Of a stretch of 64,000 bases of DNA, positions 1,243 through 59,275 are shown piece after piece. Origin of the DNA: a virus. The stretch lies in the IMG/VR virus record IMGVR_UViG_3300023082_000009, positions 30,880-94,879 of that record, one strand, 5' to 3'. Position numbers and translations under genes: made by a program. Positions within the stretch are counted from its first letter, which is position 1, and each line of letters starts with the position of its first letter. A model generated the notes under the pieces. The model had not been told where the DNA came from, ran no database searches, and saw only the letters and a list, made by a program, of their open reading frames with translations.

Positions 1243-1258
1243 GTGCAATTGATTGCAC
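1243..1258. repeat. 16-bp palindromic repeat, copy 1 (exact, TG centre)
   Basis: GTGCAATTGATTGCAC: seven-base inverted arms around TG. It lies between a stop codon and the AGGAGG ribosome-binding site of the GTG-start gene at 1272, a placement several copies share. Confidence 0.9.
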
Positions 1259-1271
1259 AGGAGGCAACAAC

Positions 1272-1715
1272 GTGAGCCACACCAGCGCAGTAAAAAGCAT
1301 TGCCATCACCAGCGTTGAAGCGCTGCGTGAGGCCGTCAAGGAACTGAACGCCAACGGCGTGAAGTGCAGCTTGGTCGAGAACTCCACCCCTCGCGCCTAC
1401 TACAGCAACCAGACCGGCCTGGGCAAAGCCGACTTCGTACTCAAGCTGGACAACAGCCGTTACGACGTTGGCTTCTACAAGTCCGAGAACGGCGGCTACG
1501 AAGTGCGCACCGACTTCTGGGGCCAGGACGTGAAGAACCAGCTCGGCGCCACCGCGTCAGGCCCTGGCAAGACTGAGCAAGCCCAGCTGGGCAAACTCTT
1601 CCAGGCGTACGGCATCCACGCCGCCATGATGGAAGCCCGCCGCAAGGGCCTGATGGCTACCCGCCAGAAAGGCAAGGACGGCATCGAGCAAGTAGTCGTC
1701 TCGGGCTACCGTTAA
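1272..1715 (+). CDS. DUF1257 (Ycf35-like) protein
   Basis: 147 aa starting at GTG, preceded by a strong AGGAGG. The N-terminal MSHTSAVKS, the central DNSRYDVGFYKSENGGYEV and the C-terminal pattern of a Tyr-rich helix, ARRKG and a short strand match my recollection of the DUF1257/Ycf35 family, known from cyanobacteria, plastids and phages and without an assigned biochemical function. The next gene looks like DUF2997, its usual partner, which strengthens both calls. No AAA ATPase partner is visible in the window. Confidence 0.7.
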   Translation: MSHTSAVKSIAITSVEALREAVKELNANGVKCSLVENSTPRAYYSNQTGLGKADFVLKLDNSRYDVGFYKSENGGYEVRTDFWGQDVKNQLGATASGPGKTEQAQLGKLFQAYGIHAAMMEARRKGLMATRQKGKDGIEQVVVSGYR

Positions 1716-1750
1716 TCCACTCACCCGGCCATAGGCCAGAGGACCGCACC

Positions 1751-1954
1751 ATGCGTAAGCAAGTCGTTATCTCCATCCTCCCGGATGGCACCACCAGCAT
1801 CGACGCCCAGAACTTCAAAGGTAAGGGCTGCCAGGATGCTACCAACCAGATCGCGCTCGCCCTGGGCGGTGCCGGTCGCGACACGTCGGACGACAAGAAG
1901 AAGCCTGACTTCTTCGCGCCCGGCACCACCGGCACCCAGACCCACAACGTCTGA
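1751..1954 (+). CDS. DUF2997-like small protein
   Basis: 67 aa, ATG after AGAGGA. The pattern of a short beta strand with ISPDG-type turn (ISILPDGTTSIDA), FKGKGC, then a helix ending in ALGG fits DUF2997. That family is found next to DUF1257, as here, 35 bp downstream of it. The C-terminal ~25 residues are Lys/Asp/Pro/Thr-rich and probably disordered. Function unknown. Confidence 0.65.
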   Translation: MRKQVVISILPDGTTSIDAQNFKGKGCQDATNQIALALGGAGRDTSDDKKKPDFFAPGTTGTQTHNV

Positions 1955-1978
1955 TAGCGAGGCACCAGGAGAGAGATC

Positions 1979-2353
1979 ATGGGACTGTTAGCCAATAGCT
2001 TGGACAAGCCGCAGGACGCAGTGGTTATCACCTTCGGGGAGGACGGCTCTGCCGAGTCCCTGCACGTAGACCAGTTCGACCTGGGCTTCCTCGGCAAGAA
2101 GGAAATCACCCGCGCCACGGACATCCGCTTCGAGGGTGACACGCAGGACTGGACGATCTACCTCCTGGACGCCAAGGGCGAAAACCCTACGCTGGCCTGG
2201 AAGGGCTGCAAAGGCCTGCCCTCCTACGAAGTGGCGCGCACCGTCGAGGTGGCTTGGTTGAACCTTTGCCGTCTCAACGATGCCGACCCGCGTGACGGGG
2301 ACGGACACACCTACCTCAACCAAGCACGGAAGGCCAACGGTCTCGCCATCTGA
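1979..2353 (+). CDS. Unknown 124-aa protein, last gene of the DUF1257 unit
   Basis: ATG after AGGAGAGA, 24 bp behind the DUF2997-like gene and directly before a strong terminator, so it is probably the last gene of that transcript. Acidic, mixed alpha/beta, no membrane segment or recognisable motif. Its position suggests a role with the DUF1257/DUF2997 pair, which is inference only. Confidence 0.7.
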   Translation: MGLLANSLDKPQDAVVITFGEDGSAESLHVDQFDLGFLGKKEITRATDIRFEGDTQDWTIYLLDAKGENPTLAWKGCKGLPSYEVARTVEVAWLNLCRLNDADPRDGDGHTYLNQARKANGLAI

Positions 2354-2366
2354 CCTTCCACCCCTC

Positions 2367-2392
2367 GGGCGCTTCGGCGCCCTTCCTTGTTT
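2367..2392 (+). terminator. Rho-independent terminator
   Basis: Stem GGGCGC / GCGCCC with a TTCG tetraloop, followed by TTCCTTGTTT. It separates the DUF1257 unit from the replication block. Confidence 0.85.
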
Positions 2393-2403
2393 CGGAGAAC
2401 ACC

Positions 2404-2727: not shown

Positions 2728-2737
2728 GGCCTCCGCC

Positions 2738-3274: not shown

Positions 3275-3276
3275 CC

Positions 3277-4632
3277 ATGAAGTACAACCACGGGCACCAC
3301 ACTTTGTCGACCCTGGCAAAGACGCTGACCACCAAAGACGACGCTCACTTCATCGCCTACATCGAAGTGATGTCCGTTCTGGGCAAGTTCTGGTCCGCCC
3401 GGTTCACCCCCAGCGAGTTCCTGGTCCTCAGTTTCCTGGCCAATCGCACGCTGATTTTCCGTAAACGGGCGGAGGCAATCACCCGTAGACACTTCGAGGA
3501 GGGCATCTCGTCGGAGAGAGGGGACACCTGCACAGGCTGCGGAGTGAGCGAACACGCCCGAGTCAGGGCTTTAAACTCTTTGTGTTCCCGCAATTTCATC
3601 AACGTACACTGCTTTTTGGAAGGCAAAACAGAGACCAAGCCCCGGATCTACGAGCTGAATTATGAGCTTTTAGTAGAGGGCCACGACCTCGGGGAGATCC
3701 GAAACATGCTAAAACGTAGCCGAACACTCGACCGAGATAAGCGTCCCGAGGACGATTTTTATGCCGAAAATACCCCCCGACAATTCGCGGGGGTACCCCC
3801 CGACAATCGTGGAGGCTTAACAGAGCTATTACATAGCTCTAAAAGAACTTCTATTAACATAGAAGAGTCGGCAGCTGCGCAGCCGAGCCAATCGAGGTTG
3901 AAGGTTGGTAAGAAGACAGTAGCGGGCGCAATCAATTGCACACCCAAACCTCCGCCTACTGGTAATGCCGCAGAGCGCATCGCGCAGATCCAAGCTGACA
4001 CTACGAAAGCTCGGACCACCCGCGTGGCTACTGCAAAGACCCTCCCCGCCCGGCGCTGGGAGATCAAGGATCTACAGGCCCTCCTTGACCAGGGGCGCGC
4101 CGACGCGGGCGTCACCGTGCCTCGCGTTATGGCGACTACCAAAGGGGCGGGTGTGTTGTTCAAGCGGATGAAGGAAGCCGAGATCACCGACGCGCTGGAG
4201 TTCTTCACCTGGACCTTCCAGAACTGGGGCACCGTGGCCTCGGCCAACCGCCGCGCCAAGGCCAAGCAGTTGAAGGACACCAAGGCGTCGAACAGCGAGA
4301 TGTCCCTGATCCCGAACTTCGCGGAGCTGGCCTACCGCTTCCCCTACATCCTCGCGTTCTTCAACGACCGCAAGTACACCAAGGTGCAGGAAGAGCAGAA
4401 GGTTGTCCGGCAGAAGCAGGAGACCCGCGCCCTCGCAGAGAAGCAGCAGGTGGCCATTGCTACCCGCCGCGACATCGTGCGCCAGCAGGACATCGAGCAA
4501 CGCGACAAAGACCGAGCTGCCCAGGAGCGTCGCGTAGCCCGCCCGGTCGTGCGCCGCAGCCGCCAGCTCGTCGACGACCTGGACGAACCGTTGCCAGCCT
4601 ACAAAGAAAGGGAGTGGAACCCAGATGAGTAA
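3277..4632 (+). CDS. Replication initiator, lambda O-like organisation
   Basis: 451 aa. The N-terminal ~190 residues carry a winged-helix-like region (LSFLANRTLIFRKR; VRALNSLCSRNFINVH) typical of phage replisome organisers. A low-complexity linker (~190-250) follows, then a helical C-terminal half with a charged coiled-coil stretch and the basic piece VVRRSRQ. The DNA encoding the linker is distinctly AT-richer and holds two 14-bp iterons and two inverted repeats, as the lambda origin lies within gene O. A possible loader and a DnaB-type helicase follow at once. Function is inferred from architecture and context, not from a conserved motif. Confidence 0.65.
   Translation: MKYNHGHHTLSTLAKTLTTKDDAHFIAYIEVMSVLGKFWSARFTPSEFLVLSFLANRTLIFRKRAEAITRRHFEEGISSERGDTCTGCGVSEHARVRALNSLCSRNFINVHCFLEGKTETKPRIYELNYELLVEGHDLGEIRNMLKRSRTLDRDKRPEDDFYAENTPRQFAGVPPDNRGGLTELLHSSKRTSINIEESAAAQPSQSRLKVGKKTVAGAINCTPKPPPTGNAAERIAQIQADTTKARTTRVATAKTLPARRWEIKDLQALLDQGRADAGVTVPRVMATTKGAGVLFKRMKEAEITDALEFFTWTFQNWGTVASANRRAKAKQLKDTKASNSEMSLIPNFAELAYRFPYILAFFNDRKYTKVQEEQKVVRQKQETRALAEKQQVAIATRRDIVRQQDIEQRDKDRAAQERRVARPVVRRSRQLVDDLDEPLPAYKEREWNPDE
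3771..3941 (+). other. Candidate replication origin inside the initiator gene
   Basis: Two identical 14-bp direct repeats TACCCCCCGACAAT (3771-3784 and 3794-3807; 23-bp period), with a GGGGGTACCCCC palindrome between them. Two AT-rich inverted repeats follow: AGAGCTAT-TAC-ATAGCTCT (3822-3840) and CTTCTAT-TAAC-ATAGAAG (3848-3865). A copy of the 14-bp palindromic repeat (3927-3940) ends the cluster. The cluster lies where the protein is a linker, as in lambdoid O genes. Confidence 0.55.
3927..3940. repeat. Palindromic repeat, copy 2 (one mismatch), in coding sequence
   Basis: CGCAATCAATTGCA differs from the core only in its first base. It lies inside the initiator gene at the 3' edge of the candidate origin. 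Confidence 0.75.
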
Positions 4633-6501: not shown

Positions 6502-6511
6502 GGACTGAGCA

Positions 6512-9446: not shown

Positions 9447-9902
9447 ATGTCCGAAGAACGCATCATCCGCCGCACACGCACCGTAGCCCGAGGGGTACTC
9501 CGCCAGGAGCCTACTCACCTGGGCGACATCAACCAACGCATGCAATTGATTGCAGAAGCCGAGGCCGAGATCCGCAAGACCCTGGAGGCCATCGAGACAG
9601 CCAAGGCCGAAGTGGAAGACCTCATGAAGGCCGCAAAGCTGACCACCCACGAGCACCTGGGGCTGATCGCGGAGTGGGTCGAGACCAAGACCAACTCGTC
9701 TACCGAAGTCAGCGTAGAAGCGGCTCGCAAGGCGATCAGGAACGACAAGGACTTCTTCTCCGTCCTCAAGGTCCAGATGGGTCCGCTGGGCAAGGTGCTG
9801 TCCGAGAACGAGATCAAGGCCATCGCCAAGGTCACGCCCGGTCAGGTCACCGGCAAGAAGTTCCAGATCATGCAACCGAAAAAGAAGGCAGGCAAAAAAT
9901 GA
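9447..9902 (+). CDS. Unknown 151-aa protein with basic termini
   Basis: ATG 9447 after AGGAG; an in-frame ATG at 9405 lies within the terminator stem-loop region and lacks a binding site. The N terminus reads MSEERIIRRTRTVARG, a clear example of the recurrent basic terminal peptide. A long helical segment (~30-75, coiled-coil-like) follows, and the tail is Lys-rich. An exact palindromic repeat lies inside the gene at 9541 and encodes MQLIAE. Location between polymerase and primase suggests a replication accessory. Confidence 0.7.
   Translation: MSEERIIRRTRTVARGVLRQEPTHLGDINQRMQLIAEAEAEIRKTLEAIETAKAEVEDLMKAAKLTTHEHLGLIAEWVETKTNSSTEVSVEAARKAIRNDKDFFSVLKVQMGPLGKVLSENEIKAIAKVTPGQVTGKKFQIMQPKKKAGKK
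9541..9554. repeat. Palindromic repeat, copy 3 (exact core, TG centre), in coding sequence
   Basis: TGCAATTGATTGCA inside the gene at 9447. Confidence 0.85.
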
Positions 9903-13099: not shown

Positions 13100-14788
13100 A
13101 TGCGCCCGGCTATCCTTGCGGGCGCTATGAAGCTCCCTCTCGATAGTATCGACGCCCCTGCCGTAAAGAAGCTGACCACCTACAAGCATCGCCCCCTGGG
13201 CCTTGCCGACGGTGAGCCAGATCTGGAGGTCGAGGCTTGGTACTACGAGGGGGATTTTCTTTGCGTGCCCCGCCAGCTCGGGATCACGCTGTGCAATCAG
13301 TTGCACATCGAGATCGAAGATCAGACCAGTGATGGGTTCCCTGCCGTCTTCCCTTGCATCCCCGATCCCAGGGTGTACCAGGAGCCGCAGATCGACCAGA
13401 TCGTGGAAACCTTCGACAGCTTTTACGACTTCATCTTCCGTGCCCATACCGGGTGGGGTAAGACCGTGGGCTCCCTCATTGCCGCAGCGCGGATGGGGCG
13501 GACCACCATTGTCATCGTTGACCAGGACAACCTCCGGGAGCAGTGGGAGGAGTGCCTGATCAAGTTGTTCGGCTTCAAGCCCGAGGAGATCGGGATCATC
13601 CAGGGGCCGGAGAAGAAGTGGCGCTGGAAGGGACTGGCCGTAACCATCGCTATGGTGCAGACCCTCAGCCAGAAGGGCGTGTCGGAGGAGATGGCGGAAT
13701 ACTACGGTACTGCCATCGTCGACGAGGTACACACCGCTGGCGCCCCGACGTTCTCCGCCTCCCTGGTCATGTTCAGCGCCGGTCGACGCCTGGGCGTGTC
13801 TGCTACTCCTGGTCGCCGTGATGGCCTCCAGCGCGCCCTGGACCACAACCTGGGCAAGATCCGCGTGGCAGCCGACAAGGAGCACGACCGCTCCGCCGTC
13901 TACGTGATCCGTCACGAGACCGTCTACAGCTTCTACGGCAACGTGTCCAAGATGACCGGGCGGATCTTCTCCGAGGTCGAGGAGGATGGCCCGCGTAACA
14001 TGACGATCATGGAGGCAGCTCTCTGGCTGTACGAGTCGGGGCGGGACGTGCTGATCCTCTCGGACCGTATCGAGCAGCTGCGGGAGCTGATGAGCATCGG
14101 CTATTACCTGGGGGTGCCCGAGGAGGAGATGGGCCTGTATACTGGCCACGACCCCCAGTGGATCTTCGGCAAAGACCCGAAGCCTACCAAGAGACCTGAT
14201 GACCTGCACCGATGGAAAGACGACCGAGGCCGCTTCGTGTACGCGGAGTACAGCGCGGTCGGTTTGCAGCTCGTGAGGAAACGAATTCCTAAAGCCACAC
14301 TCAAACAGGTCAAAGAAAGATGCACGATGATGTTTGCTACATACGGGATGTGCTCAAAGGGCTTCGACAAACCCAGCCTCACGGGCGGCATCGACGCTAC
14401 ACCTAGAAGCACGGCAGAACAGATTCACGGTCGGATTCTCCGAGGGGAAGACGGCAGGCCAATACCGATCTGGGTAACCATCGCCGACGTGAACAGCTAC
14501 CGACTGATGTATTCGTTCGGTAGTCGGGTGAAGGAGTATCTCAAAAGCAATGGTGTCCTCTTTGAGTGGCACCCAGACGGGAGTGTTGAACCATGCGACG
14601 TGACAGACCTAAAGGCAGAGATCTACGACCGGGTAACCGAGCTGAAATCTATGCAGATCCAAACCAACAGCGACGGGCTAAATATTCTGCTGACGGCCAA
14701 GGACGCGCAGAGAAACAAGCGGACAGCCGAGCGCGCTATAATGCAAAAGTTCCAAAGACCGCCAGCCCGCCTGCCCCGCCATCAGTGA
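13100..14788 (+). CDS. SF2 helicase (UvsW/RAD25-like)
   Basis: 562 aa. RecA-like domain 1 has Walker A HTGWGKT (116-122), DEVH (208-211) and SATPGR (234-239). Domain 2 carries a QIHGRILRG motif VI. Layout fits the UvsW-type branch-migrating helicases used in phage recombination. The start is uncertain: ATG 13100 or ATG 13127, neither with a good binding site. A GCGCCCG/CGCGGGC-type hairpin (13102-13125) lies between them. The C terminus is basic and overlaps no gene if the next start is 14824. Confidence 0.85.
   Translation: MRPAILAGAMKLPLDSIDAPAVKKLTTYKHRPLGLADGEPDLEVEAWYYEGDFLCVPRQLGITLCNQLHIEIEDQTSDGFPAVFPCIPDPRVYQEPQIDQIVETFDSFYDFIFRAHTGWGKTVGSLIAAARMGRTTIVIVDQDNLREQWEECLIKLFGFKPEEIGIIQGPEKKWRWKGLAVTIAMVQTLSQKGVSEEMAEYYGTAIVDEVHTAGAPTFSASLVMFSAGRRLGVSATPGRRDGLQRALDHNLGKIRVAADKEHDRSAVYVIRHETVYSFYGNVSKMTGRIFSEVEEDGPRNMTIMEAALWLYESGRDVLILSDRIEQLRELMSIGYYLGVPEEEMGLYTGHDPQWIFGKDPKPTKRPDDLHRWKDDRGRFVYAEYSAVGLQLVRKRIPKATLKQVKERCTMMFATYGMCSKGFDKPSLTGGIDATPRSTAEQIHGRILRGEDGRPIPIWVTIADVNSYRLMYSFGSRVKEYLKSNGVLFEWHPDGSVEPCDVTDLKAEIYDRVTELKSMQIQTNSDGLNILLTAKDAQRNKRTAERAIMQKFQRPPARLPRHQ
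13291..13306. repeat. Palindromic repeat variant, copy 4 (one mismatch), in coding sequence
   Basis: GTGCAATCAGTTGCAC, within the SF2 helicase gene. The mismatch breaks arm symmetry at one position. Confidence 0.55.
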
Positions 14789-18566: not shown

Positions 18567-18582
18567 ATGCAATTGATTGCAC
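18567..18582. repeat. Palindromic repeat, copy 5 (exact core, TG centre)
   Basis: ATGCAATTGATTGCAC, starting seven bases after the RuvC-like gene stop and just upstream of the promoter at 18600. Confidence 0.9.
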
Positions 18583-18599: not shown

Positions 18600-18628
18600 T
18601 TGAATAAAGAATGAACCCGCCCTACTAT
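18600..18628 (+). promoter_or_regulatory. Sigma70-type promoter
   Basis: TTGAAT (18600-18605), 17-bp spacer, TACTAT (18623-18628). It precedes a monocistronic unit closed by the terminator at 20205; a palindromic repeat lies 18 bp upstream of the -35, an operator-like position. Confidence 0.7.
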
Positions 18629-18690
18629 CACTTCGCGAGTTCACCAACTTGACCCGGCATCCCGCCACCTACACACGAGAGTTACCCACC

Positions 18691-20184
18691 ATGGCAAACA
18701 CCAAAGCTAAATCCGCTCCGGTTGAGGAAGCGGCTGCCGACATCGAAGTCGGTTCCAATGTCACCTTCCTCGGCTACGATGCCGACACCCCCGAAGCCGA
18801 ACGCATCCTCGAAGCTGGCGAGCGTTACGAAGTAATCGAACTGCCCGGCACCACCGAGATCGACGGCGAAGTTGTCGAAACCGGTTACGTTCTGCGCCTG
18901 CCGAACCCTGACTTCAACAAGAAGAAAAAGGTTCACGCCGAAACCAACCCTGAATTCCTGGAAACCGAAGTCTTCGCCGAAGAGATCGAACTCTACGTTG
19001 AAGGCGACGATGCGGGTGCCGAAGGTGGCGAAGCTGCCGACGCGGGCGCTGATGCCCCAGGCGATGATGACCCTCTGACCTACGAAGAGCTGGCCGGTTA
19101 CGACAAAGCCCAGCTGCTCGAATTCGCAGAAGTCAACGAAGTCAAGCTGACCGCAGCTGACAAGAAAACCGACAAGGCGCTCCTGGCCAAGCTGGCTGCC
19201 GTCTACGAGCTGAGCCCTGCCGAGCCTGCCCCTACCAAGGCACCGGCCAAACCAGCAGCCAAAACTGCCGCAGCCAAGCCTGCCGCCGAAGCGCCTGCTG
19301 CCAAGCCTGAAACCGCCGCAGCCAAGAAAAAGCGTGAAGCTGCCGAAGCCGCGCAGAAGACCGCAGCCGCTGCCAAGAACAAAGGCGTGAACAAGTCGCC
19401 CGAAGGCGAAGTCGATCCTGACGAAGTGCCGGACCTGGACAACGAAGACGATGCCGTTCTGGCGTTGATCGACGGTGACGTGGATCTGGTCGAAGTAGCC
19501 CAGGAACTGGAATCGGCGGTGGCCGTGTCCGAGTACCAACTCGGCGGCGTGCTGTACCACATCAAAAAAGAAAAAGTGCATCTGGCCGTCGACAAGAAGG
19601 GCAAGCTGCTCAACCCTGAATACGGCGAAACGGGCGGCTTCAAGCTGTTCCTCCAGGAGAACTTCAACCTGGACTACCGCAAGGCCACCTACCTGATCGA
19701 CATCTACATCAACTTCACCCAGGCCGGTATCGAAAACCCGTCCGAAGTTGTTGGCCGTATCGGCTGGACCAAGGCAAGCAAGATCGCCAAGCCGCTGGGC
19801 CTGCCTGACGCTGACGTAGAAGGCCTGATCCAGGCTGCCGAGAACAACACCGTTCAAGACCTGTCTACCATCATCAAAGATGAATTCACGGTCGGCGGCG
19901 GTGAGGGCGCCAGCAAAGGCTCCGAAGGTACCAAGGTCAATCGCCTGACCCTGCGCTTCCGCTTCGTTGAAGAAGAAGCCAACGTGGTCGAGGACATCCT
20001 CAAGGAAGCCGCTGAGAAACTCGGCGTCAAAGAAGATGAAGCCTTGTTCCAGATCCTGACCGAGTATCACGCACAAGCCCTGACCGGCGACGCTGATGCC
20101 CAGGACGTGGAAGACACTGCCAAGGCAGCGGCCAACGCCAAGCCAGCTACACGCGGTAAGCCTCGTGGCGCAGCTCGTGCCTAA
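18691..20184 (+). CDS. Unknown 497-aa acidic protein with Ala/Lys/Pro-rich linker
   Basis: ATG 18691 under its own promoter and terminator, so probably made in quantity. Residues ~15-105 form an acidic domain that may be a small SH3- or OB-like barrel. A short helical repeat (YEELAGYDKAQLLEFAEVNE) follows, then an Ala/Pro/Lys linker (~175-235) and a conserved-looking domain (~265-380, GGVLYHIKKEKVHL and FLQENFNLDYRKATYLIDIY). The tail is TRGKPRGAARA. The C-terminal half resembles DUF3102-like phage proteins; function unknown. Confidence 0.75.
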   Translation: MANTKAKSAPVEEAAADIEVGSNVTFLGYDADTPEAERILEAGERYEVIELPGTTEIDGEVVETGYVLRLPNPDFNKKKKVHAETNPEFLETEVFAEEIELYVEGDDAGAEGGEAADAGADAPGDDDPLTYEELAGYDKAQLLEFAEVNEVKLTAADKKTDKALLAKLAAVYELSPAEPAPTKAPAKPAAKTAAAKPAAEAPAAKPETAAAKKKREAAEAAQKTAAAAKNKGVNKSPEGEVDPDEVPDLDNEDDAVLALIDGDVDLVEVAQELESAVAVSEYQLGGVLYHIKKEKVHLAVDKKGKLLNPEYGETGGFKLFLQENFNLDYRKATYLIDIYINFTQAGIENPSEVVGRIGWTKASKIAKPLGLPDADVEGLIQAAENNTVQDLSTIIKDEFTVGGGEGASKGSEGTKVNRLTLRFRFVEEEANVVEDILKEAAEKLGVKEDEALFQILTEYHAQALTGDADAQDVEDTAKAAANAKPATRGKPRGAARA

Positions 20185-20232: not shown

Positions 20233-20252
20233 ACTTGACCAGGAGATCTGCT

Positions 20253-21014
20253 ATGCCAACTCCAATTCGCCCAGGTCGTAAGTCGGTGAACGTGACCCGA
20301 CCAGAGAAGGGCAGTACCCCGGCACGCCCGTCGCGCCCTGCGCCACGGCCAAAGCCAACCGACATGTCCAAGGTCAAACTGCGCCTTGAGTACGTGGACA
20401 TCAATGACATCCAGCCCTACGAATGGAACGCACGCGACAACGCCAAGGCTGTGACTGCCGTGGCCAACTCGATCAGAGCGTTCGGCTTTGTCGTGCCCGT
20501 AGTGATCGACGCCAACGGCGTGCTGGGCGCTGGCCACACTCGTGTCGAAGCAGCCAAGACCCTGGGAATGCTGGAGGTTCCTGCGGTGCGGGCGGAGCAC
20601 TTGACCAAGGAACAGATGGACGCCTTCCGTATCGCCGATAACAAGGTGGCGGAGATGGCAACCTGGAATACCTCGATGCTGGCGGATGAGATGGACAAGC
20701 TGACCGGCCTGTTCGACTTCACCGACTTCGGTTTCGGCCAGGGCGAGATCGACTGCCTTGCGTCCCTGGTAGGCGACGACTGCCTGTCTACTGCCAACCT
20801 GGGCGCCCTCACCGGTACCGCAGCAGGCGAAGAGACTCCAGGCCGCAGCGTTCGCCGTGCGCCGCTCCAGGCCCGCATCGTGATCGGTGAGCTGACCTTC
20901 TTTGTCCCCGCCGAGCAGTACCGTAACTGGGTGCAGGGTCTGCGCGATCTGCACGACTTCAAAGACGAAGACATTGCGGCTGATCTGAAACGCCGCCTGG
21001 GGTTCCACGAATGA
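20253..21014 (+). CDS. ParB/sulfiredoxin-fold protein
   Basis: 253 aa, ATG after AGGAG. A Pro/Arg-rich N-terminal tail (~1-37) is followed by a ParB N-terminal-like domain: DINDIQPYEWNAR, then GAGHTR (92-97) and VPAV, the pattern of ParB and Srx-fold enzymes. Phage copies of this fold are often nucleases or partners of DNA methyltransferases. The C-terminal ~80 residues are unassigned. It overlaps the rhomboid gene by 4 bp and lies just before a ParB-methyltransferase fusion. Confidence 0.75.
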   Translation: MPTPIRPGRKSVNVTRPEKGSTPARPSRPAPRPKPTDMSKVKLRLEYVDINDIQPYEWNARDNAKAVTAVANSIRAFGFVVPVVIDANGVLGAGHTRVEAAKTLGMLEVPAVRAEHLTKEQMDAFRIADNKVAEMATWNTSMLADEMDKLTGLFDFTDFGFGQGEIDCLASLVGDDCLSTANLGALTGTAAGEETPGRSVRRAPLQARIVIGELTFFVPAEQYRNWVQGLRDLHDFKDEDIAADLKRRLGFHE

Positions 21015-21607
21015 AATACCTCCCTTGGATTGTTTGCTCCATCATCGCCCTGGCCTACCCCTTCGCCGGGTACCTGCCAGCCCTCGTACCTGGGACGGAC
21101 TGGGGCCTCGTAGGCGTCCTGGCTGCACCGCTCCGGCATGCGACCCTTCTACACCTCGCGGTGAATCTGTTACCCTTGGCCTACCTCCTCAGCCTGATGC
21201 GCAACGACCCGCCTGCCCGTGTGATCATGGGCCTGCTGACCATCGTTGTAGTGGGAGGTATGTGGGTGTGGTTCTGGGGTCGACTCGGTATCCACGAAGG
21301 GGCAAGCGGCCTCACCCTCGGCGTGCTGGCAATGCTGGCGATGCGCACTGACTACCGATCCGTACTATCCGTTGCAGCCCTGGTGGGCACCGGCATCGCC
21401 CTTGAGTATGTGAACATACCCGAGGCGTCCTGGGAGACCCACCTGGGTGGCTTCGTGGCTGGAGCCTACTACGGGATCATCACACTGAACTGGAAGAGCA
21501 AGCGGGAGATGGACCATGACGACGAATCGAGTAGTGCGCAGGCTACGCCATGCCCGGCCAAGTGCCGAAGTGACAGCCGACCACATTACCCTGGTCCCGG
21601 TCGATAA
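21011..21607 (+). CDS. Rhomboid-family intramembrane serine protease
   Basis: 198 aa, about six hydrophobic segments. The rhomboid signatures appear in order and spacing: H43-xxxx-H48-xxx-N52 (RHATLLHLAVN), the serine motif GASG with S99, and THLGGFVAGAYYG with H144, matching GlpG H145/H150/N154, S201 and H254. It is therefore predicted to cut membrane proteins with an S99-H144 dyad. The soluble C-terminal 30 residues overlap the next gene by 92 bp. Rhomboids are rare in phages. Possible targets are host membrane proteins or the phage's own small membrane proteins. Confidence 0.8.
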   Translation: MKYLPWIVCSIIALAYPFAGYLPALVPGTDWGLVGVLAAPLRHATLLHLAVNLLPLAYLLSLMRNDPPARVIMGLLTIVVVGGMWVWFWGRLGIHEGASGLTLGVLAMLAMRTDYRSVLSVAALVGTGIALEYVNIPEASWETHLGGFVAGAYYGIITLNWKSKREMDHDDESSSAQATPCPAKCRSDSRPHYPGPGR

Positions 21608-23072
21608 GCTGACCCCCGACAATAAGAACCCCCGCAAGGCGGACCAAGCCCGGTCCGCTCTGCTGCTCCTCTCGCTCAAGAAGTTGAGCTTCCTCATGCC
21701 GCTGTTCCGTCAAAGGTCCAGCGGCTTGTTGCTGTCTGGCCACCAGCGCCTCACCCAGTCGAAGATCCTGGGCCTGGATGCGGTGCCGGTGGTAGACGTG
21801 GATGTCGAGGACAGCGAGGTGATGAACATCAACCTCCTGTTCAACCGACTGACCAACGACTTCAACGCGTTCGACACGGGAGCCCAGGTCCAGGAGCGCC
21901 TGGACATGAAGCAGGTGCTTGCGCTGCTGGAGGCCCTACCGGACGCCGAGGGTCACTACGCCCTGGGCTGCACCGTGGAACCGATCCGGCAGTTCGCTCG
22001 GGCGGTGGGTGATCAGTACGACAAGAAGGCCGCAGTCACAGCCGGTGCCTTTACCCGTATGAATATCCGCATCCCTCTCGTCGTCAGCGAGTCCGGCAAG
22101 GTGGTCAATGGCGTCAACCGGATGTTCGCCGCGCTCGACCGTGGTATCGAAGAGTGGCCGGTAGTCCGGGTGCCCGACGACATCGCCGAGGTTGCAGCCG
22201 TGGTGCTGAACTACCTGTCCATGGACTTCTCCGTCGACGACGATTTCAAGAACCTGCTGCGCTCCTCTGCGTTCCGCCGCGTGTCGAACAACCGGGGCAC
22301 CGTAGGCAAGACCTACCGCTTCTGGGCCAACGGCTGCCGCTCGCTCCTGGATCGCGACAGCTACTCGCCGGAGTATTGGTCGAACTTCCGCCAGCTGCAC
22401 GGCAACTCGATCCTGGACTTCGGGGCGGGCCTCGGGAAGGTGGCGCCCTACCTCCTGACCAAGGGCTTCGACGCTCACGACTTCGAGCCGTACCGCGTAG
22501 ACCCAGACATGAATGCCGCCGAGCCCTCGCGCACCTACAGCAGGGAGCAGGCCAAGCGATTCCTCAAGGCCATCGAGAACCCCGAGCAGCGCTTCGACAG
22601 CATCTTCATGTCTGCCGTGATGAACTCGATCCCGTTCCCGGAAGACCGGCTCATGGTGCTGGCGATTGTCCATGCGCTGTGTGCCCGTGAAACCGTGGTC
22701 TACGGAACCTGCCGCGACATGTCCGACTTTGACTACGAGTACGGCGGCGTGCGCAACGGCAACTACTTCGTCTGGGATACCGAGCCGGGCGTTCGCCTGG
22801 GCGACGTGTCGAGCTGCCCCAAGCTCCAGAAGTTCATGACCCAGGAAGAGGCTCGCGGGTACTTCGAGCGCTTCTGGACCACTATCGAGTTCTGGAAGGG
22901 TGGCAACGTGTTCTACTTCAAGCTCTCCGATCCGAAGGGCGTGAACATCAAGGCCCTGGGCCAGTCGCTAGACTTCGAGTTCAACCTGCCGTTTCGGGAC
23001 GGCAAGGGCTTGGATCTGGTCAAGGAAGCCAAGGCTGCATTCAGCAAGCGTCTGCGGAGGCAAGTTCCATGA
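21516..23072 (+). CDS. ParB-like / SAM-methyltransferase fusion
   Basis: 518 aa. N-terminal basic peptide TNRVVRRLRHAR, then a ParB-like domain (~25-150) with LLLSGHQRLTQ (SGHQRL, 74-79). The C-terminal half is a class I SAM-dependent methyltransferase: ILDFGAGLG (299-307), an acidic strand-2 end (DFEPY) and FDSIFMSAVMN. I see no DPPY/NPPY motif, so amino-methylation of DNA is not directly indicated. ParB-methyltransferase fusions are typical of phage and mobile-element DNA-modification loci. ATG 21516 follows GGGAGATGG inside the rhomboid gene. Confidence 0.75.
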   Translation: MTTNRVVRRLRHARPSAEVTADHITLVPVDKLTPDNKNPRKADQARSALLLLSLKKLSFLMPLFRQRSSGLLLSGHQRLTQSKILGLDAVPVVDVDVEDSEVMNINLLFNRLTNDFNAFDTGAQVQERLDMKQVLALLEALPDAEGHYALGCTVEPIRQFARAVGDQYDKKAAVTAGAFTRMNIRIPLVVSESGKVVNGVNRMFAALDRGIEEWPVVRVPDDIAEVAAVVLNYLSMDFSVDDDFKNLLRSSAFRRVSNNRGTVGKTYRFWANGCRSLLDRDSYSPEYWSNFRQLHGNSILDFGAGLGKVAPYLLTKGFDAHDFEPYRVDPDMNAAEPSRTYSREQAKRFLKAIENPEQRFDSIFMSAVMNSIPFPEDRLMVLAIVHALCARETVVYGTCRDMSDFDYEYGGVRNGNYFVWDTEPGVRLGDVSSCPKLQKFMTQEEARGYFERFWTTIEFWKGGNVFYFKLSDPKGVNIKALGQSLDFEFNLPFRDGKGLDLVKEAKAAFSKRLRRQVP

Positions 23073-23341: not shown

Positions 23342-23346
23342 TCGAA

Positions 23347-23360
23347 TGCAATCAATTGCA
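23347..23360. repeat. Palindromic repeat, copy 6 (exact core, CA centre)
   Basis: TGCAATCAATTGCA, five bases after a stop and directly before the CGGAG ribosome-binding site of the CmoA-like gene. Confidence 0.9.
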
Positions 23361-23371
23361 CGGAGTACACC

Positions 23372-29604: not shown

Positions 29605-29620
29605 GTGCAATCAACTGCAC
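29605..29620. repeat. Palindromic repeat variant, copy 7 (one mismatch)
   Basis: GTGCAATCAACTGCAC, immediately before the CGGAG binding site of the dCTP-deaminase-like gene. Confidence 0.75.
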
Positions 29621-31705: not shown

Positions 31706-31721
31706 GTGCAACTAATTGCAC
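31706..31721. repeat. Palindromic repeat variant, copy 8
   Basis: GTGCAACTAATTGCAC, three bases after the terminator T-run and directly before GGGAGG of the gene at 31733. Confidence 0.75.
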
Positions 31722-35515: not shown

Positions 35516-36007
35516 ATGATCCTCGCAGCCACCGGCCACCGGCCTGACAAACTGGGCGGCTACAGTGTACCCCTCGCCACTCTCCGTACTGACCTAGCAA
35601 TGGGTTGGATGGACATCAGGCAAATCGACAAAGGTATCACCGGCATGGCCCTGGGCTGGGACCAGGACTTCGCTCTCGCGTGCTACGAACTCGGAATCCC
35701 CTACATCGCAGCCATACCCTTCGAGGGCCAGGAGAAAGCGTGGCCTGCTGCATCGCAGCGCGTATATCGCTGGCTGATGAACCGTGCCGATGAGGTCGTC
35801 ATCGTCTCGCCCGGCGTGTACTCCCCGGCCAAGATGCTCAAGCGAAACATCTGGATGGTCGACGAGTGCAATCAATTGCTCGCGCTGTACGACGGCAGCC
35901 AGGGCGGGACGGCCCACTGCCTGCGGTATGCCCGCGAATGGCAGAAGGAAGTGACCAACCTATGGCACGTCTATCAAGCCGAGCTGCAAGATGACATTCC
36001 GTTTTGA
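35516..36007 (+). CDS. SLOG-fold (DUF1273/TIGR00725-like) protein
   Basis: 163 aa, ATG after AAGGAGCTAGC. LAATGHRPDKLGGY at the start is the hallmark of a SLOG-related phage family; ALGWDQDFALACYE and ADEVVIVSPG follow. SLOG proteins bind nucleotides or NAD-type ligands; the phage role is unknown. A palindromic repeat lies inside the gene. Downstream begins the 34-bp repeat array. Confidence 0.7.
   Translation: MILAATGHRPDKLGGYSVPLATLRTDLAMGWMDIRQIDKGITGMALGWDQDFALACYELGIPYIAAIPFEGQEKAWPAASQRVYRWLMNRADEVVIVSPGVYSPAKMLKRNIWMVDECNQLLALYDGSQGGTAHCLRYAREWQKEVTNLWHVYQAELQDDIPF
35867..35880. repeat. Palindromic repeat, copy 9 (one mismatch), in coding sequence
   Basis: TGCAATCAATTGCT, in the SLOG-type gene; one mismatch in the last base of the arm. 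Confidence 0.7.
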
Positions 36008-36281: not shown

Positions 36282-36297
36282 GTGCAATTGATTGCAC
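36282..36297. repeat. Palindromic repeat, copy 10 (exact, TG centre)
   Basis: GTGCAATTGATTGCAC, about 30 bp before the CTCTACAGAG leader of the gene at 36348. Confidence 0.9.
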
Positions 36298-39208: not shown

Positions 39209-39224
39209 GTGCAATCAATTGCAC
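39209..39224. repeat. Palindromic repeat, copy 11 (exact, CA centre)
   Basis: GTGCAATCAATTGCAC, immediately before GGGAG of the gene at 39238. The preceding ~60 bp also hold an AAAGGCC/GGCCTTT inverted repeat. Confidence 0.9.
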
Positions 39225-41123: not shown

Positions 41124-41813
41124 ATGGCACTTTCAAAAGAACAGTATTTCAACATGGGCCACCGCGACGCCCAGACCACCCCGCCTAACCGTAACGGCGC
41201 CCTCATTGCTTCCATGTCCTGGCAGGGCCGCGCCTACGCCGAAGGCTACAGCGCTGGGGAACTTCACCAGGAAGCAAACGCCATTCGCGCCCAGGCTTGC
41301 CCGGCATGCGCGGCGGGTATCCCCTTTCAACAGTCTGTCGATTGCGTGCAATCAATTGCACCGGGTGCAGCACGCCGGGCGGACCGCATCCAGGCACTGA
41401 CACGCGGCTACATCTCCGCCATGCTCTGGACCACTACCGACGACGACGGCAACGAATGCCAGGACATGGAAGTAACGCCAGAGGGCCGCGCCGAAGTCCT
41501 GGCAATCGTGACCGCGTTCTATGACGCCAACCATGTCGACCTGGGCGCGTACGTTGATTTGCGAATGGCGGACGTGGGCAGCACCTACCGAGTTCACGCC
41601 AGCCAGCAAACAGAGGCGTACGGGTTTGCAGGCCACGACCTTTGGCTGACTAGCCAGGGCCACGGGGTTGGGTTTTGGGACCGTGGGCACGGGCGGGTAG
41701 GCGAACGCCTCACAAAGGCCGCCAAGGCGTTTCAGGGTTGCGACGCGTATACAACAGACGACGGCTATGTCGACTTGTCTATCCCCTATCACGCTTCCTG
41801 GAAAAAGGTCTAA
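41124..41813 (+). CDS. Unknown 229-aa protein
   Basis: Leader-bearing gene. The N terminus (YFNMGHRDA, then WQGRAYAEGY) loosely recalls the RMF/CrpP-type pattern, much weaker than in the gene at 9899. The C-terminal ~80 residues are beta-rich (WDRGHGRVGERL). An exact palindromic repeat lies inside the gene. Confidence 0.6.
   Translation: MALSKEQYFNMGHRDAQTTPPNRNGALIASMSWQGRAYAEGYSAGELHQEANAIRAQACPACAAGIPFQQSVDCVQSIAPGAARRADRIQALTRGYISAMLWTTTDDDGNECQDMEVTPEGRAEVLAIVTAFYDANHVDLGAYVDLRMADVGSTYRVHASQQTEAYGFAGHDLWLTSQGHGVGFWDRGHGRVGERLTKAAKAFQGCDAYTTDDGYVDLSIPYHASWKKV
41346..41361. repeat. Palindromic repeat, copy 12 (exact, CA centre), in coding sequence
   Basis: GTGCAATCAATTGCAC within the gene at 41124. 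Confidence 0.9.
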
Positions 41814-42146: not shown

Positions 42147-42162
42147 GTGCAATCAATTGCAC
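42147..42162. repeat. Palindromic repeat, copy 13 (exact, CA centre)
   Basis: GTGCAATCAATTGCAC, between the previous stop and the AGGGAG of the 38-aa gene at 42178. Confidence 0.9.
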
Positions 42163-43180: not shown

Positions 43181-43609
43181 ATGAAAACCGTAGCCACCTA
43201 CCCAGCCTTCGACGTAGTAGACCTGGAAACCGAAGTTATCCATTTGTCCGCCGAGGTCTGCAATGATCGCCTGGGCTCAGGTATCAAGTTCTGCACCGCG
43301 TACGAAAGCCGCCGTCACGGTACCCTCTACCGCGAAGTGTCGCCCAACTGCATCGACTACTATTGCGCTGACATCTACACCACCCCGGAAGAGATGGCCG
43401 CCCAGATTGCCAAGTCAGCAGAACGCAAAGACCCTCGGTTCTGGTTTAACAATTGCGGCGCCTGCATCACCGCCCAGGCAATGCCGCATTACACGATGTT
43501 TCTCATCCAGGAAGGGCAGTTGGTCACTATGGCCGGTCACACACTGCGCGTACGTATCGTGGGCGACTATATCCGCCTGGACGTGGTAGAGCAGGCAGCC
43601 GCCGCGTAA
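43181..43609 (+). CDS. Unknown 142-aa protein
   Basis: Strong promoter and leader. Beta-rich with several cysteines (NDRLGSGIKFCTAY; WFNNCGACITAQAM). No metal motif of a known family is clear. Palindromic repeat and terminator follow. Confidence 0.65.
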   Translation: MKTVATYPAFDVVDLETEVIHLSAEVCNDRLGSGIKFCTAYESRRHGTLYREVSPNCIDYYCADIYTTPEEMAAQIAKSAERKDPRFWFNNCGACITAQAMPHYTMFLIQEGQLVTMAGHTLRVRIVGDYIRLDVVEQAAAA

Positions 43610-43623
43610 TGCAATCAATTGCA
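43610..43623. repeat. Palindromic repeat, copy 14 (exact core, CA centre)
   Basis: TGCAATCAATTGCA, beginning right after the TAA of the gene at 43181 and seven bases before the terminator. Confidence 0.9.
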
Positions 43624-43630
43624 CCGCCTA

Positions 43631-44332: not shown

Positions 44333-44614
44333 ATGAACGCACTTCACACCACCACCATTCTCGCCCAGGCTCAGGCCGTACCATTTACCCAGGCCGAAGC
44401 CTATGCAGCCGAACGCGGTATCATGGGCCGCTACAACCGTCAGTATCTGCGCAGCCTGTTGCGTGCCCGTCGCGTGATGCGCCGCAACCTGACCCAGGCA
44501 ATCGCGGGCGGTCACCTACTCCAGGCAGTAGAGCAAGCCACCCTTATGCATAGCTTCGGAGTACAGGCCGTTGTATGCATCCGCCGCAATGCACGTCACA
44601 CCCTGGTAGCCTGA
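44333..44614 (+). CDS. Small basic helical protein (93 aa)
   Basis: Last gene with the palindromic leader. Helical, rich in arginine (YLRSLLRARRVMRRNL), ending with a hydrophobic helix. Possibly nucleic-acid-binding; no family recognised. Confidence 0.65.
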   Translation: MNALHTTTILAQAQAVPFTQAEAYAAERGIMGRYNRQYLRSLLRARRVMRRNLTQAIAGGHLLQAVEQATLMHSFGVQAVVCIRRNARHTLVA

Positions 44615-44628
44615 TGCAATTGATTGCA
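44615..44628. repeat. Palindromic repeat, copy 15 (exact core, TG centre)
   Basis: TGCAATTGATTGCA, directly after the previous stop; opens the non-coding gap. Confidence 0.9.
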
Positions 44629-45094
44629 CGAGATTGGTTCGCTCTTTTCTCAGTGAAGAATCGGGCGGACCAATCCATTACCCCTCTATGCATATGCCAT
44701 ACCACCCTATAGAAAAATCCACCATAGCTTTTCCGGTGTCGCTAAATGGACCCGCGCCGCAGAGTTTCTCTACGTACTGATTTCAAAGTGACCCTACCTA
44801 CTTTCTTCGTTTTCCATCTGGCCTACGACACGTCATGTTCAATCAAGCTCTTTGCATGTCTCTCTCATGACTCTCACATATCAAAACGCTTTTCAGATCG
44901 GATTTTTTGCTGATGCAATCAATTGCACTGACATGTATGGGAAATTTTTGAATTCAATCAGTGTCCAGGTTTGCGAGGGCAGGATCGGTCATGATCACAT
45001 CAGTGTTCAGCATGCCTTCGTCATGAACAGGTATGATCGGCACAACGGGGCAAACCATTCAATGCCCGAAAAATCGACGTTGAGGATCAAGATC
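44629..45094 (+). other. Non-coding gap with a second palindromic repeat
   Basis: About 465 bp, visibly AT-richer than the genes. Runs of T and A, and CCCTATAGAAAAATCC similar to a stretch near 42770. An exact repeat lies at 44914. No supported gene or clear promoter; the downstream genes use different leaders (GGAGAGTCAAAGTC-type). Confidence 0.6.
44914..44927. repeat. Palindromic repeat, copy 16 (exact core, CA centre)
   Basis: TGCAATCAATTGCA, inside the non-coding gap. Confidence 0.9.
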
Positions 45095-51611: not shown

Positions 51612-51627
51612 GTGCAATTGATTGCAC
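51612..51627. repeat. Palindromic repeat, copy 18 (exact, TG centre)
   Basis: GTGCAATTGATTGCAC, immediately before GGGAG of the gene at 51640. Confidence 0.9.
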
Positions 51628-56555: not shown

Positions 56556-56634
56556 TGCCCTCGCGGCGGGCCACCGGACCCTACCCCTGGCCTCCCTCTC
56601 GATCCTCATAGGTCTCTCCCACTTCTCGGTGTGA
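56476..56634 (+). CDS. Micro-gene, 52-aa membrane protein
   Basis: ATG after GGAAGGTGCGCG, 53 codons, two hydrophobic helices. Overlaps the preceding gene by 80 bp, so it is uncertain. Its stop falls one base before a palindromic repeat. Confidence 0.4.
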   Translation: MIMDTLFALTKLGYLFAMWQILAISTNALAAGHRTLPLASLSILIGLSHFSV

Positions 56635-56648
56635 TGCAATCAATTGCA
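56635..56648. repeat. Palindromic repeat, copy 19 (exact core, CA centre)
   Basis: TGCAATCAATTGCA, directly after a stop codon and upstream of a TATACT box (56687-56692). Confidence 0.9.
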
Positions 56649-56686
56649 CCGAGGTCAGTGTCGTACAAATCTTCTTCCCTTCTCGA

Positions 56687-56692
56687 TATACT
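56687..56692 (+). promoter_or_regulatory. Possible -10 element
   Basis: TATACT ahead of the gene at 56724; no convincing -35 (closest TACAAA at ~17 bp). The palindromic repeat lies upstream. Confidence 0.35.
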
Positions 56693-56723
56693 CCTGCCTA
56701 ACCGCAGACAGGAGTACCTCGCC

Positions 56724-57221: not shown

Positions 57222-57222
57222 T

Positions 57223-57987
57223 ATGACCCGCGACCAAGAGTACCGCCTCTACCGCTATAAGCTGGCTATGGACCTGCTCGACGGCGAGTTGGAGAACCCC
57301 AACGGCTTCGTGGAAGTCAGCGTCGAGGAGAGCCCAGGCATATACACCGCCGAGGAAGTCTTCAAGCCGGAGTACCGGGACGCTCGGGTGCGGTTCGCCA
57401 TAGACACGTTGAAGGATCTAGGCCTGACCCCGCGCCGCGCCCGCGACATCTACGGCATGCAGGATGCTCGTCTGTTGCGGGAAATTGGCGGAGTAGACGC
57501 CAGGATTGTAGCGGGGTCTCCTCGCAGCGGTAGGCGTGGCCGTCCGCACCCTGGACGCCCCGCCCGCAGCGCTGATCAGGTTGCCGCAGACATGCGTGCG
57601 CTGGTAGAGATGGACGACCCGGCCCCGGTGGCCCGCAGCACCCCTAGCCAGTCCCTGCGGAGCCTGCTAGAGGCCGTGTGCAGCACACCCATGGCGCCAT
57701 CCGTGCCAGAAGTGCCGGAGTGGGGCGACACCGTGCTGCCCGCCACCCGGCGCCTGTTAGAGGGCGCACCCGAGCCAACCTATAACCCGGACGGCGACAT
57801 CGCGGACGACCTGCCCACCATGGCGGTAGACCGGTTCGGGGTGGAGTACGAAGTGCCACGCAAGGGCAAGAAGAGCAAGGACGGCAAATACTCGCTTACC
57901 GGCAAGAAGAAAGCACCACCTCCGCCCAAGCCGCAGCGCCGCTTGGTCGTGAAACGCAACAGGCCGCCAGTGGCGCCGGACGATTAA
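57223..57987 (+). CDS. Unknown 254-aa protein with basic C-terminal tail
   Basis: ATG two bases after the previous stop. Helical N-terminal third with FAIDTLKDLGLTPRRARDIYG, then a Pro-rich region and a Lys/Pro-rich end finishing QRRLVVKRNRPPVAPDD, one of the terminal arginine-rich peptides. Function unknown. Confidence 0.65.
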   Translation: MTRDQEYRLYRYKLAMDLLDGELENPNGFVEVSVEESPGIYTAEEVFKPEYRDARVRFAIDTLKDLGLTPRRARDIYGMQDARLLREIGGVDARIVAGSPRSGRRGRPHPGRPARSADQVAADMRALVEMDDPAPVARSTPSQSLRSLLEAVCSTPMAPSVPEVPEWGDTVLPATRRLLEGAPEPTYNPDGDIADDLPTMAVDRFGVEYEVPRKGKKSKDGKYSLTGKKKAPPPPKPQRRLVVKRNRPPVAPDD

Positions 57988-58034
57988 CCCGACCTCGGGT
58001 AGACTGCAACCATCAACAACCAGGAGTACCACCA

Positions 58035-58403
58035 ATGCCTACATTCCATAACACCACCGACGTGCTTGCGTACCAGGAGGGCGACGTTCGCTTCCTCCCG
58101 ATTGCCCTGCCGTATGGCTTCAACCATTGGTCCGAGGCTGCACGTCAACTCCGCGAGGACAACCCTGACTTCTTCGCCGAGCGCGAGATCTGCTCTAAGA
58201 ACGACACCATCGGCGTGATCGCGTGCCAGGACGCCAACGGCAACGAAGTCGTGCGCGGCTTCATGGCCATGTGCACCGGCTCCCGCTACGTCTGCACCGA
58301 CTGGAAGCAGCGCCAGGGCACCCCGACCACCGTGCCGCAGGCCGACATCCTGGGCATCGCGGTGCGCAAAGGCCTCGTGACCCTGTTGAAGGTGAAGGTA
58401 TGA
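58035..58403 (+). CDS. Unknown 122-aa protein
   Basis: ATG after AGGAGTACCACCA. Beta-rich, Gly-containing; ends in a hydrophobic-basic strand (VTLLKVKV). Overlaps the next gene by 4 bp (ATGA). Confidence 0.62.
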   Translation: MPTFHNTTDVLAYQEGDVRFLPIALPYGFNHWSEAARQLREDNPDFFAEREICSKNDTIGVIACQDANGNEVVRGFMAMCTGSRYVCTDWKQRQGTPTTVPQADILGIAVRKGLVTLLKVKV

Positions 58404-58936
58404 ATAAGCCAGCAGCAGTAGTCGCCACGCTGGGTGAGGTAATCGGCTTGGCCACCGATTACTACTTGGCCTTCGACTTGGCCAACAATACCCACGCAGG
58501 CATCACGATCAAGCAAGAAACGCCGATCCAGTTCAATGTTTTCGTAACGCACGCGGACCACCAACACCAGCTTTTGGCCGTAGCGGTGAGGGACGGCTTG
58601 GGCGAGTGGGGAGTCACGTTCATGGATCTGACCAACCCGCAATGGCTGGTCATCCAGGAGCGTAACCAGGGCTTCGGTGTAGCTCGGTACAGCTACCAGA
58701 CCGCCGAGCAACTTTTCCGCGAATACGCCAAAGCGCACCACGCGGACGAGACGGTGACTTTCGTGAAGTCCTCCCCAGGCCGCACCGTCGTGCGCCGGGC
58801 GGTAGTGGTCGACGACCGCACCCTGAGCGCGGTGCCCTTCGGCGTGATCCTGGACGCACGCGTGATTCGTGGCGAGCGCATCTTTGCCCAGGACACCGAG
58901 CAAAACCCACGCTACGGCATCGACATCTACGGGTGA
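58400..58936 (+). CDS. Unknown 178-aa protein
   Basis: ATG overlapping TGA. Soluble, beta-rich in the C-terminal half (VRRAVVVDDRTLSAVPFGVIL). No family recognised. Confidence 0.62.
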   Translation: MNKPAAVVATLGEVIGLATDYYLAFDLANNTHAGITIKQETPIQFNVFVTHADHQHQLLAVAVRDGLGEWGVTFMDLTNPQWLVIQERNQGFGVARYSYQTAEQLFREYAKAHHADETVTFVKSSPGRTVVRRAVVVDDRTLSAVPFGVILDARVIRGERIFAQDTEQNPRYGIDIYG

Positions 58937-58939
58937 CCC

Positions 58940-59275
58940 ATGAACAAGCTCTCTCTCCTCGCAGCCCTGGTAAAAGACGCCTGGGCGAAGCGCAAGCAAC
59001 GCAAGAAGGTAGGCAAGCTGGGGCTCTGGGTGGCCGGGGAGATCCTGGACTCGGGCGATGAGTACGTGGCCTACATCACGGTCAACGGCAAGGCCAACGC
59101 CGTCCTGGTGCGCAGCGCCTCGAAGGCCACGGCCATCTCCCGCCGCAAGCTGATCATCGACACCATGATGTCGGCATCGCGGGAGGAGGCCCAGGAGCAG
59201 ATCCTCCGCAACCCCGTGCAATTGATTGCACGAACCCAGGGCGACGTTACCATCGTCAACCCCAAGGACCACTGA
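58940..59275 (+). CDS. Unknown 111-aa protein
   Basis: ATG after GGGTGACCC. Basic N-terminal helix (WAKRKQRKKVGKLG), then a beta-rich core and a helix. A palindromic repeat lies inside the gene at 59216. Confidence 0.6.
   Translation: MNKLSLLAALVKDAWAKRKQRKKVGKLGLWVAGEILDSGDEYVAYITVNGKANAVLVRSASKATAISRRKLIIDTMMSASREEAQEQILRNPVQLIARTQGDVTIVNPKDH
59216..59231. repeat. Palindromic repeat, copy 20 (exact, TG centre), in coding sequence
   Basis: GTGCAATTGATTGCAC encoding VQLIAR in frame near the end of the gene at 58940. Confidence 0.9.

Follow-up and report, generated by a model that had tools for sequence, protein, structure and literature searches.

KorB of plasmid RK2 recognizes a 16-bp operator and silences promoters both from a position 4-10 bp upstream of them and from a distance (PMC11790492). 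The 16-bp palindromes bound by Noc and by ParB are related and differ at two half-site positions (PMC7383237). Cluster O mycobacteriophages carry more than 30 dispersed palindromes per phage (TGTTCGG-NNN-CCGAACA), about one third of them in genes, and the stoperators of cluster A and the start-associated sequences of cluster K phages either lack symmetry and have an orientation or are tied to translation starts (PMC4351075). Reports of dispersed phage palindromes have so far concerned single phage groups and left their function unexplained. Here we describe the palindrome GTGCAA-N4-TTGCAC, which is scattered over a 64,000-nucleotide stretch of viral DNA (the window), positions 30,880-94,879 of the 94,879-bp IMG/VR record IMGVR_UViG_3300023082_000009 and about two thirds of a phage genome. 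Its distribution in this phage and its relatives points to a family of sites that would be read by a co-evolving phage protein as DNA, and not as an RNA hairpin. We lean towards the view that the palindrome is the operator of a phage-encoded dimeric DNA-binding protein, most likely of the gp50 family, and that the sites form a genome-wide network.

An initial annotation of the window reported 20 copies of the palindrome. The coordinates that it gave for 14 copies with an exact core (TGCAAT-NN-ATTGCA) were all correct, with the 16-mers beginning one base earlier. Five of its six degenerate copies were convincing (3926, 13291, 29605, 31706 and 35866), for a total of 19; the sixth would be 39171 or 48910, both of which look like chance. 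The proposed excess was borne out, since GTGCAA-N4-TTGCAC with up to two mismatches gave 21 matches in the window against 3.0 ± 1.6 in its dinucleotide shuffles (largest value, 7). Over the full record there are about 28 copies of GTGCAA-N4-TTGCAC, and GTGCAATNNATTGCAC occurs 11 times exactly and 14 times with one mismatch, while a reversed-pattern control gave no exact match. The shorter core TGCAA....TTGCA was found 25 times in the record, against 0.045 expected from base composition and 5 for the runner-up palindrome. The two centers are equally frequent, as had been claimed (TCAA 11, TTGA 11). The presence of a dispersed palindrome is thus confirmed.

A named relative is Pseudomonas phage SM1/PaMx31 (genus Samunavirus), with DNA polymerase and terminase 64-68% identical to those of the window phage. 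These proteins are roughly 30-39% identical to those of phages of Aeromonas, Rhizobium, Agrobacterium, Rhodobacter and Vibrio, and no named phage matched the first 25 kb of the window at near identity. Counting the motif in the whole genome and in relatives, as the annotation had proposed, revealed enrichment throughout this clade. TGCAA-N4-TTGCA is the commonest palindrome in siphophages whose hosts span seven genera (Pseudomonas, Stenotrophomonas, Rhizobium, Agrobacterium, Rhodobacter, Aeromonas and Vibrio), with 9-47 copies against about 0.05 expected. It was the top palindrome in all 13 clade members first tested (10-47 copies versus 0.03-0.10 expected). Core copies numbered 30 in SM1, 16 in HJ05, 10 in PG28, 33 in JP1, 47 in L338C, 17 in TM16, 29 in RcDurkin, 31 each in DLP5 and DLP3, 9 in RcZahn and 15 in RHph_Y1_11; the genomes that we designate G001, G004, G005, G009 and G011 have 32, 26, 26, 19 and 22. 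Ten further contigs have 3-25 copies each; because the matches listed by a 16-mer pattern scan of IMG/VR include both chance and true carriers, mainly multi-copy contigs were used. Five Vibrio phages (VHS1, Ares1, SIO-2, VP-RY-9 and KarBoss) have few or no exact copies and 25-50 variants with one or two mismatches, where 1-5 are expected. The core was absent from six control phages reached via distant terminase only and lying outside the clade (Gordonia, Tsukamurella, Streptomyces, Maribacter and Rhodococcus phages, and Rhizobium RHph_Y65). Open-access full texts yielded no literature on the motif and no description of it in Samunavirus, RcF-cluster or Rhizobium phages. The G004 contig also has seven copies of another dispersed palindrome, GAAAAT..ATTTTC.

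The arms of the site are kept and its center bases are clade-specific (T..A, C..G, A..T, or mixed A/G). The centers are TCAA/TTGA in the window phage, (A/G)CG(C/T) in SM1 (giving the form GTGCAAGCGTTTGCAC), CYRG in HJ05, ACGT in JP1, CNNG in L338C and TTAA in PG28. The palindrome is longest and most uniform in Agrobacterium phage JP1, in which TTGCAAACRTTTGCAA is repeated 33 times, about every 2.9 kb. Site positions were mapped between phages via homologous proteins, and sites within 30 bp of the homologous place were taken as shared. By this measure the window phage shares 12 of 20 mappable sites with SM1 (0.45 expected) and 20 of 25 with G001 (0.6 expected). At shared places the center is T..A in the window phage and A/G..C/T in SM1, inside genes as well as outside them; where the gene following that of the major tail protein begins, for example, ATGCAATCAATTGCAC stands in the window phage and ATGCAAACGCTTGCAC in SM1. 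Coding copies occupy the same codons in SM1 and G001, with other center bases in SM1, in agreement with the earlier suggestion that codons are adapted to the sites. The concerted change of centers at many loci suggests a shift in the specificity of one protein, and would not be expected of a host factor or of an RNA structure.

The annotation had also placed many copies directly before ribosome-binding sites or right after stop codons, and this placement holds. Of the 30 SM1 copies, 15 lie wholly between genes (background 7.4%, P = 6e-10) and 9 directly adjoin a stop codon (P = 6e-14); in the window phage a Shine-Dalgarno-like sequence follows 8 copies at a distance of 0-2 bases. The first position is often A, in keeping with its use as the final base of a stop codon or the first base of an ATG. 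The repeats of Cluster O phages are likewise dispersed and partly intragenic, with a center lacking orientation and function unknown, but they have another sequence, occur in unrelated phages of one cluster, and have no proposed cognate protein. Stoperators and start-associated sequences resemble the present sites in being short, numerous and dispersed in the intergenic gaps of phage genomes. The present sites, in contrast, are symmetric, with both centers equal, partly promoter-linked and partly in genes; half of those in SM1 are intragenic and several are distant from starts.

These contexts can be followed along the window. A Shine-Dalgarno sequence comes directly after the sites at 1243..1258 (GTGCAATTGATTGCAC, immediately 5' of aggagg and a GTG start, in a position common to G001), 31706..31721 (GTGCAACTAATTGCAC), 39209..39224 (GTGCAATCAATTGCAC, common to SM1 and G001) and 51612..51627 (GTGCAATTGATTGCAC), and the site at 42147..42162 (GTGCAATCAATTGCAC) also lies ahead of one. 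The site at 23346..23361 (ATGCAATCAATTGCAC), common to SM1 and G001, has a stop codon before it and a Shine-Dalgarno sequence after it. At 43609..43624 (ATGCAATCAATTGCAC) and 44614..44629 (ATGCAATTGATTGCAC) the final A of a stop codon doubles as the first base of the site, and the copy at 29605..29620 (GTGCAATCAACTGCAC) falls between genes and is common to SM1 and G001. Intragenic copies lie at 3926..3941 (GCGCAATCAATTGCAC, with a site at the same codons in SM1 and G001), at 13291..13306 within a helicase gene (GTGCAATCAGTTGCAC, common to G001) and at 59216..59231 (GTGCAATTGATTGCAC, same codons in G001). Two more are common to G001, at 9540..9555 (ATGCAATTGATTGCAG, two outer mismatches) and 56634..56649 (ATGCAATCAATTGCAC), and pattern matches at 35866..35881 (GTGCAATCAATTGCTC), 36282..36297 (GTGCAATTGATTGCAC), 41346..41361 (GTGCAATCAATTGCAC) and 44913..44928 (ATGCAATCAATTGCAC) complete the series with the site at 18567..18582 (ATGCAATTGATTGCAC). 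The latter is upstream of a gp50-family gene, and a site occupies the homologous place in SM1, G001, DLP5, RcZahn, RcDurkin, L338C and others.

The gp50-family gene (18649..20184, plus strand; likely true start ATG 18691) encodes the candidate binder, corresponding to SM1 gp50 and to PHROG 17202, a profile of unknown function matched by 10 of 10 gp50 members (best E 4e-101). The gene sits in the replication module, and every genome with the replication module of the clade encodes the family. It was found in 57 named phage records, and all records examined have the motif or a variant of it. Ten of 18 genomes have a site close to the gp50 start (P = 3e-5), as do DLP5, DLP3 and RcZahn. From this association we consider gp50 the probable binder of the palindrome. 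A helix-turn-helix domain is predicted at 19528..19890 (plus strand; model residues 34-154), with an AlphaFold core pLDDT of about 90, and the sole good PDB match of the domain in Foldseek was 6y93_B, the Noc DNA-binding domain on its site (probability 0.89, target TM 0.70). The system may resemble Noc/NBS in its predicted DNA-binding fold, for which this was the best match, and it shares with both Noc/NBS and ParB/parS the scattered 16-bp palindromes and a specificity set at few base positions with the rest of the site kept. It differs from Noc in belonging to a phage and not a chromosome, in the lack of any membrane-targeting or CTPase domain found, and in a fold match limited to one of two models. 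At sequence level gp50 showed weak DUF3102 and LmbU-like hints and nothing else. PF17762 (HTH_ParB) and PF08535 (KorB) had no match in six genomes at E values up to 10, the N-terminal 260 residues of the window protein had no Pfam match, and a scan of the family gave no ParB_N CTPase domain. Tails rich in Lys, Ala and Pro occur in about half of the gp50 proteins, and a histone-like tail was rejected as a general feature of the family on that ground. Searches of viral contigs for further gp50 loci gave nothing useful; at locus L106 (1125-2699) one frame combines DUF5131, a region weakly like the gp50 helix-turn-helix, and a possible methylase end.

Sites are also placed at a preferred distance from promoters, called here as consensus matches by scoring -35/-10 pairs with a strict sigma70-type score. 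Measured from the 14-mer end, the distance to the -35 box has a sharp maximum at 8 and 9 bp (11 hits each, against 0-4 at neighboring distances), equivalent to 7-8 bp when the 16-mer is taken as reference. Between 6 and 12 bp, 14 hits were observed in L338C versus 0.3 expected, 5 in PG28 versus 0.13, 4 in G021 versus 0.18 and 3 in HJ05 versus 0.08; the Vibrio phages and DLP5 supply further hits, those of the Vibrio phages at 8-9 bp. A promoter-proximal class like that of KorB (4-10 bp) is therefore present in L338C, PG28, HJ05, G021, KarBoss and others, and the 8-9 bp geometry belongs to part of the clade only. By eye, the -35 box of the gp50 gene itself was seen to follow a site at 8-9 bp in L338C, RcDurkin, DLP5, RcZahn, PG28 (one mismatch) and KarBoss (a variant), and at 17-31 bp in the window phage, SM1, G001 and HJ05. 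The possible promoter of the window phage, TTGAAT-17-TACTAT (18600..18628, plus strand), was likewise seen by eye, lies 18 bp downstream of the site and scores below the scan threshold. Conserved spacers that resemble a second regulatory element accompany palindrome-adjacent promoters in L338C (TTGACAAAGGATCGGTTCC..TTAGATT) and in PG28 (TTGACAAAACC.GTCAAATGCCGGATA).

The present sites share with KorB and its operator O_B of RK2 the dispersal of 16-bp palindromes on one replicon, the promoter-proximal class (here 7-8 bp from the 16-mer), a likely autoregulation and, in DLP5, a plasmid-like replicon. They differ in sequence, in their larger number and in their even spacing, and gp50 lacks a CTPase/ParB_N domain, matches neither KorB nor ParB in sequence, and has no KorA or ParA partner identified. 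In the mechanism we propose, each monomer of a dimer would put one helix-turn-helix into a TGCAA half-site, as the domains of ParB, Noc and KorB do. From sites 8-9 bp upstream of -35 boxes, including that before its own gene, the protein would set transcription, and the simplest role at such promoters would be that of a repressor, as with KorB acting from a 16-bp operator 4-10 bp upstream. The remaining, evenly spaced sites would hold the protein genome-wide and could quieten or organize the genome as one unit. Repression, rather than activation or organization, is a choice that we make tentatively, at a confidence just short of even. A possible setting is the plasmid-like prophage state known for the carrier DLP5, which replicates as a phagemid prophage (PMC5834331); the VHS1 genome is similarly extra-chromosomal in lysogens (PMC3148565). 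No integrase was found in the window phage, G001, DLP5, L338C, RcDurkin or VHS1, and G005 does have one. We regard maintenance of a plasmid prophage as a conjectural setting, somewhat less secure than repression. Sliding-clamp behavior is not expected, because there is no ParA-type partner and no recognizable CTPase domain.

Several observations weigh against a gp50 operator network. The main inconsistency is the G004 contig, which has 26 motif copies and in which gp50 and the rest of the replication module were undetected, gp50 by both profile search and hhalign; part of G004 may be missing from the contig, or it may rely on a different binder. The prohead protease gene also has a site close to its start (about 100 bp or less) in 10 of 17 genomes, an association as strong as that of gp50, and because of this linkage alone is no proof of gp50 autoregulation. 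No -35/-10 pair at 8-9 bp exceeded the threshold in the window phage or in SM1, and many sites lie within operons, between stop codon and Shine-Dalgarno sequence, where a role at the level of initiation is not obvious. In a second AlphaFold model, of a relative's gp50, Noc was absent among the best 50 matches listed, and the gp50 family had no match to ParB, KorB or PDB sequence profiles; for these reasons we speak of a Noc-like predicted fold and do not place gp50 in the ParB family. A ParA-type ATPase (PF13614) was absent from seven genomes. Finally, the genomes compared are kin, so that counts are not fully independent, and some contigs are incomplete.

Among other explanations, the one that survives best is that the sites serve chromosome organization or partition, with a protein that coats, condenses or segregates the genome and controls transcription secondarily, in the manner of Noc. 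Mean spacing ranges from one site per 2.3 kb to one per 8 kb across carriers (about 3,000 bases in the window phage) and is far more even than chance, intragenic sites included (Stouffer combined P = 7e-16), with 43 intervals shorter than 1 kb against 97.5 expected; in SM1 it is more even than that of random gene ends too (P = 0.0004). The predicted Noc-like DNA-binding fold of gp50, its Lys/Ala/Pro-rich tails and the plasmid-prophage relatives (DLP5, VHS1) agree with such a function. The constant 8-9 bp gap between site and -35 box in several phages points instead to transcription, a ParA-type partner is absent and basic gp50 tails are not universal, so that we find this account unlikely, yet worth retaining. 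We would be similarly reserved about an extended version, in which a CTPase-less Noc-like protein and about 20-45 evenly spaced, co-changing palindromes would form a chromatin-like silencer that keeps the phage as a plasmid.

The same operator network could have another binder, such as an AAA+ ATPase, a ParB_N-domain protein or an unrecognized small protein; we consider this improbable. The AAA+ protein is nearly universal, it is present in G004 where gp50 was undetected, and sites precede its gene in 5 of 17 genomes. It was rejected as weaker than gp50, since it is missing from G009, its site association is weak (P = 0.11) and no DNA-binding domain was seen in it. Its gene in the contig of the distant carrier G004 (66999-69050, minus strand) has an intein-like insert at the nucleotide-binding loop. 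ParB_N proteins, read elsewhere as a sign of phagemid partition, occur in many, though not all, clade members. At 20235-23072 of the window, a ParB_N-domain protein (20235..21014, plus strand), a rhomboid-like protein and a ParB_N-methyltransferase fusion stand in a row. As binders the ParB_N proteins were rejected: they fall into two unlike groups and not one orthologous family, show no helix-turn-helix, lie near a site in 0 of 15 cases, and are absent from G008 (119.7 kb, 20 copies). Other near-universal families are mostly recognizable replication or structural proteins, and the universal non-structural ones are enzymatic or without the look of a DNA-binding protein. No further universal plus-strand family emerged from six seed genomes, in which only antisense frames and fragments of known genes appeared.

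No better supported than another binder is an activator that would bring RNA polymerase to middle or late promoters by acting from about -52. The sharp 8-9 bp spacing to sigma70-like boxes would suit it, but the -35 and -10 boxes are near consensus and would have little need of activation, most sites have no promoter, and the KorB precedent is one of repression. A signal for replication, recombination or packaging, or a mark that protects phage DNA from nucleases, is more doubtful still. Genome-wide even sites, a candidate gene in the replication module and the heavy modification reported for DLP5 DNA (PMC5834331) speak for it, but the equal centers lack the strand bias of a directional signal, and the preference for intergenic and promoter positions is not expected of it.

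The initial annotation had offered two readings, the DNA site of a dimeric protein and an RNA hairpin. The first is supported by arms that are invariant in more than 20 divergent phages around a symmetric, clade-specific center, and by copies inside genes or upstream of -35 boxes, outside the controlled transcript. The second, unsupported as a general function, would explain through mRNA processing or translation control why many copies stand just ahead of Shine-Dalgarno sequences, but its arms would be expected to compensate rather than stay invariant, and copies upstream of promoters would not be transcribed from them; with copies inside genes besides, we judge it very improbable. Least credible of all is a mobile (MITE-like) repeat or recombination hot spot spreading by copying, which would account for near-identical dispersed copies but not for the lack of conserved flanks beyond a palindrome extension of about 1-3 bases, the even spacing, or positions kept while centers change in concert.

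A single site family has here been followed through phages of seven host genera and tied to a concrete candidate protein. If the operator network read by gp50 is real, the clade would provide a natural series of operator and regulator pairs with shifted specificity, the unannotated core protein PHROG 17202 would gain a functional name, and there would be a possible handle on the silence of integrase-less temperate phages such as DLP5.

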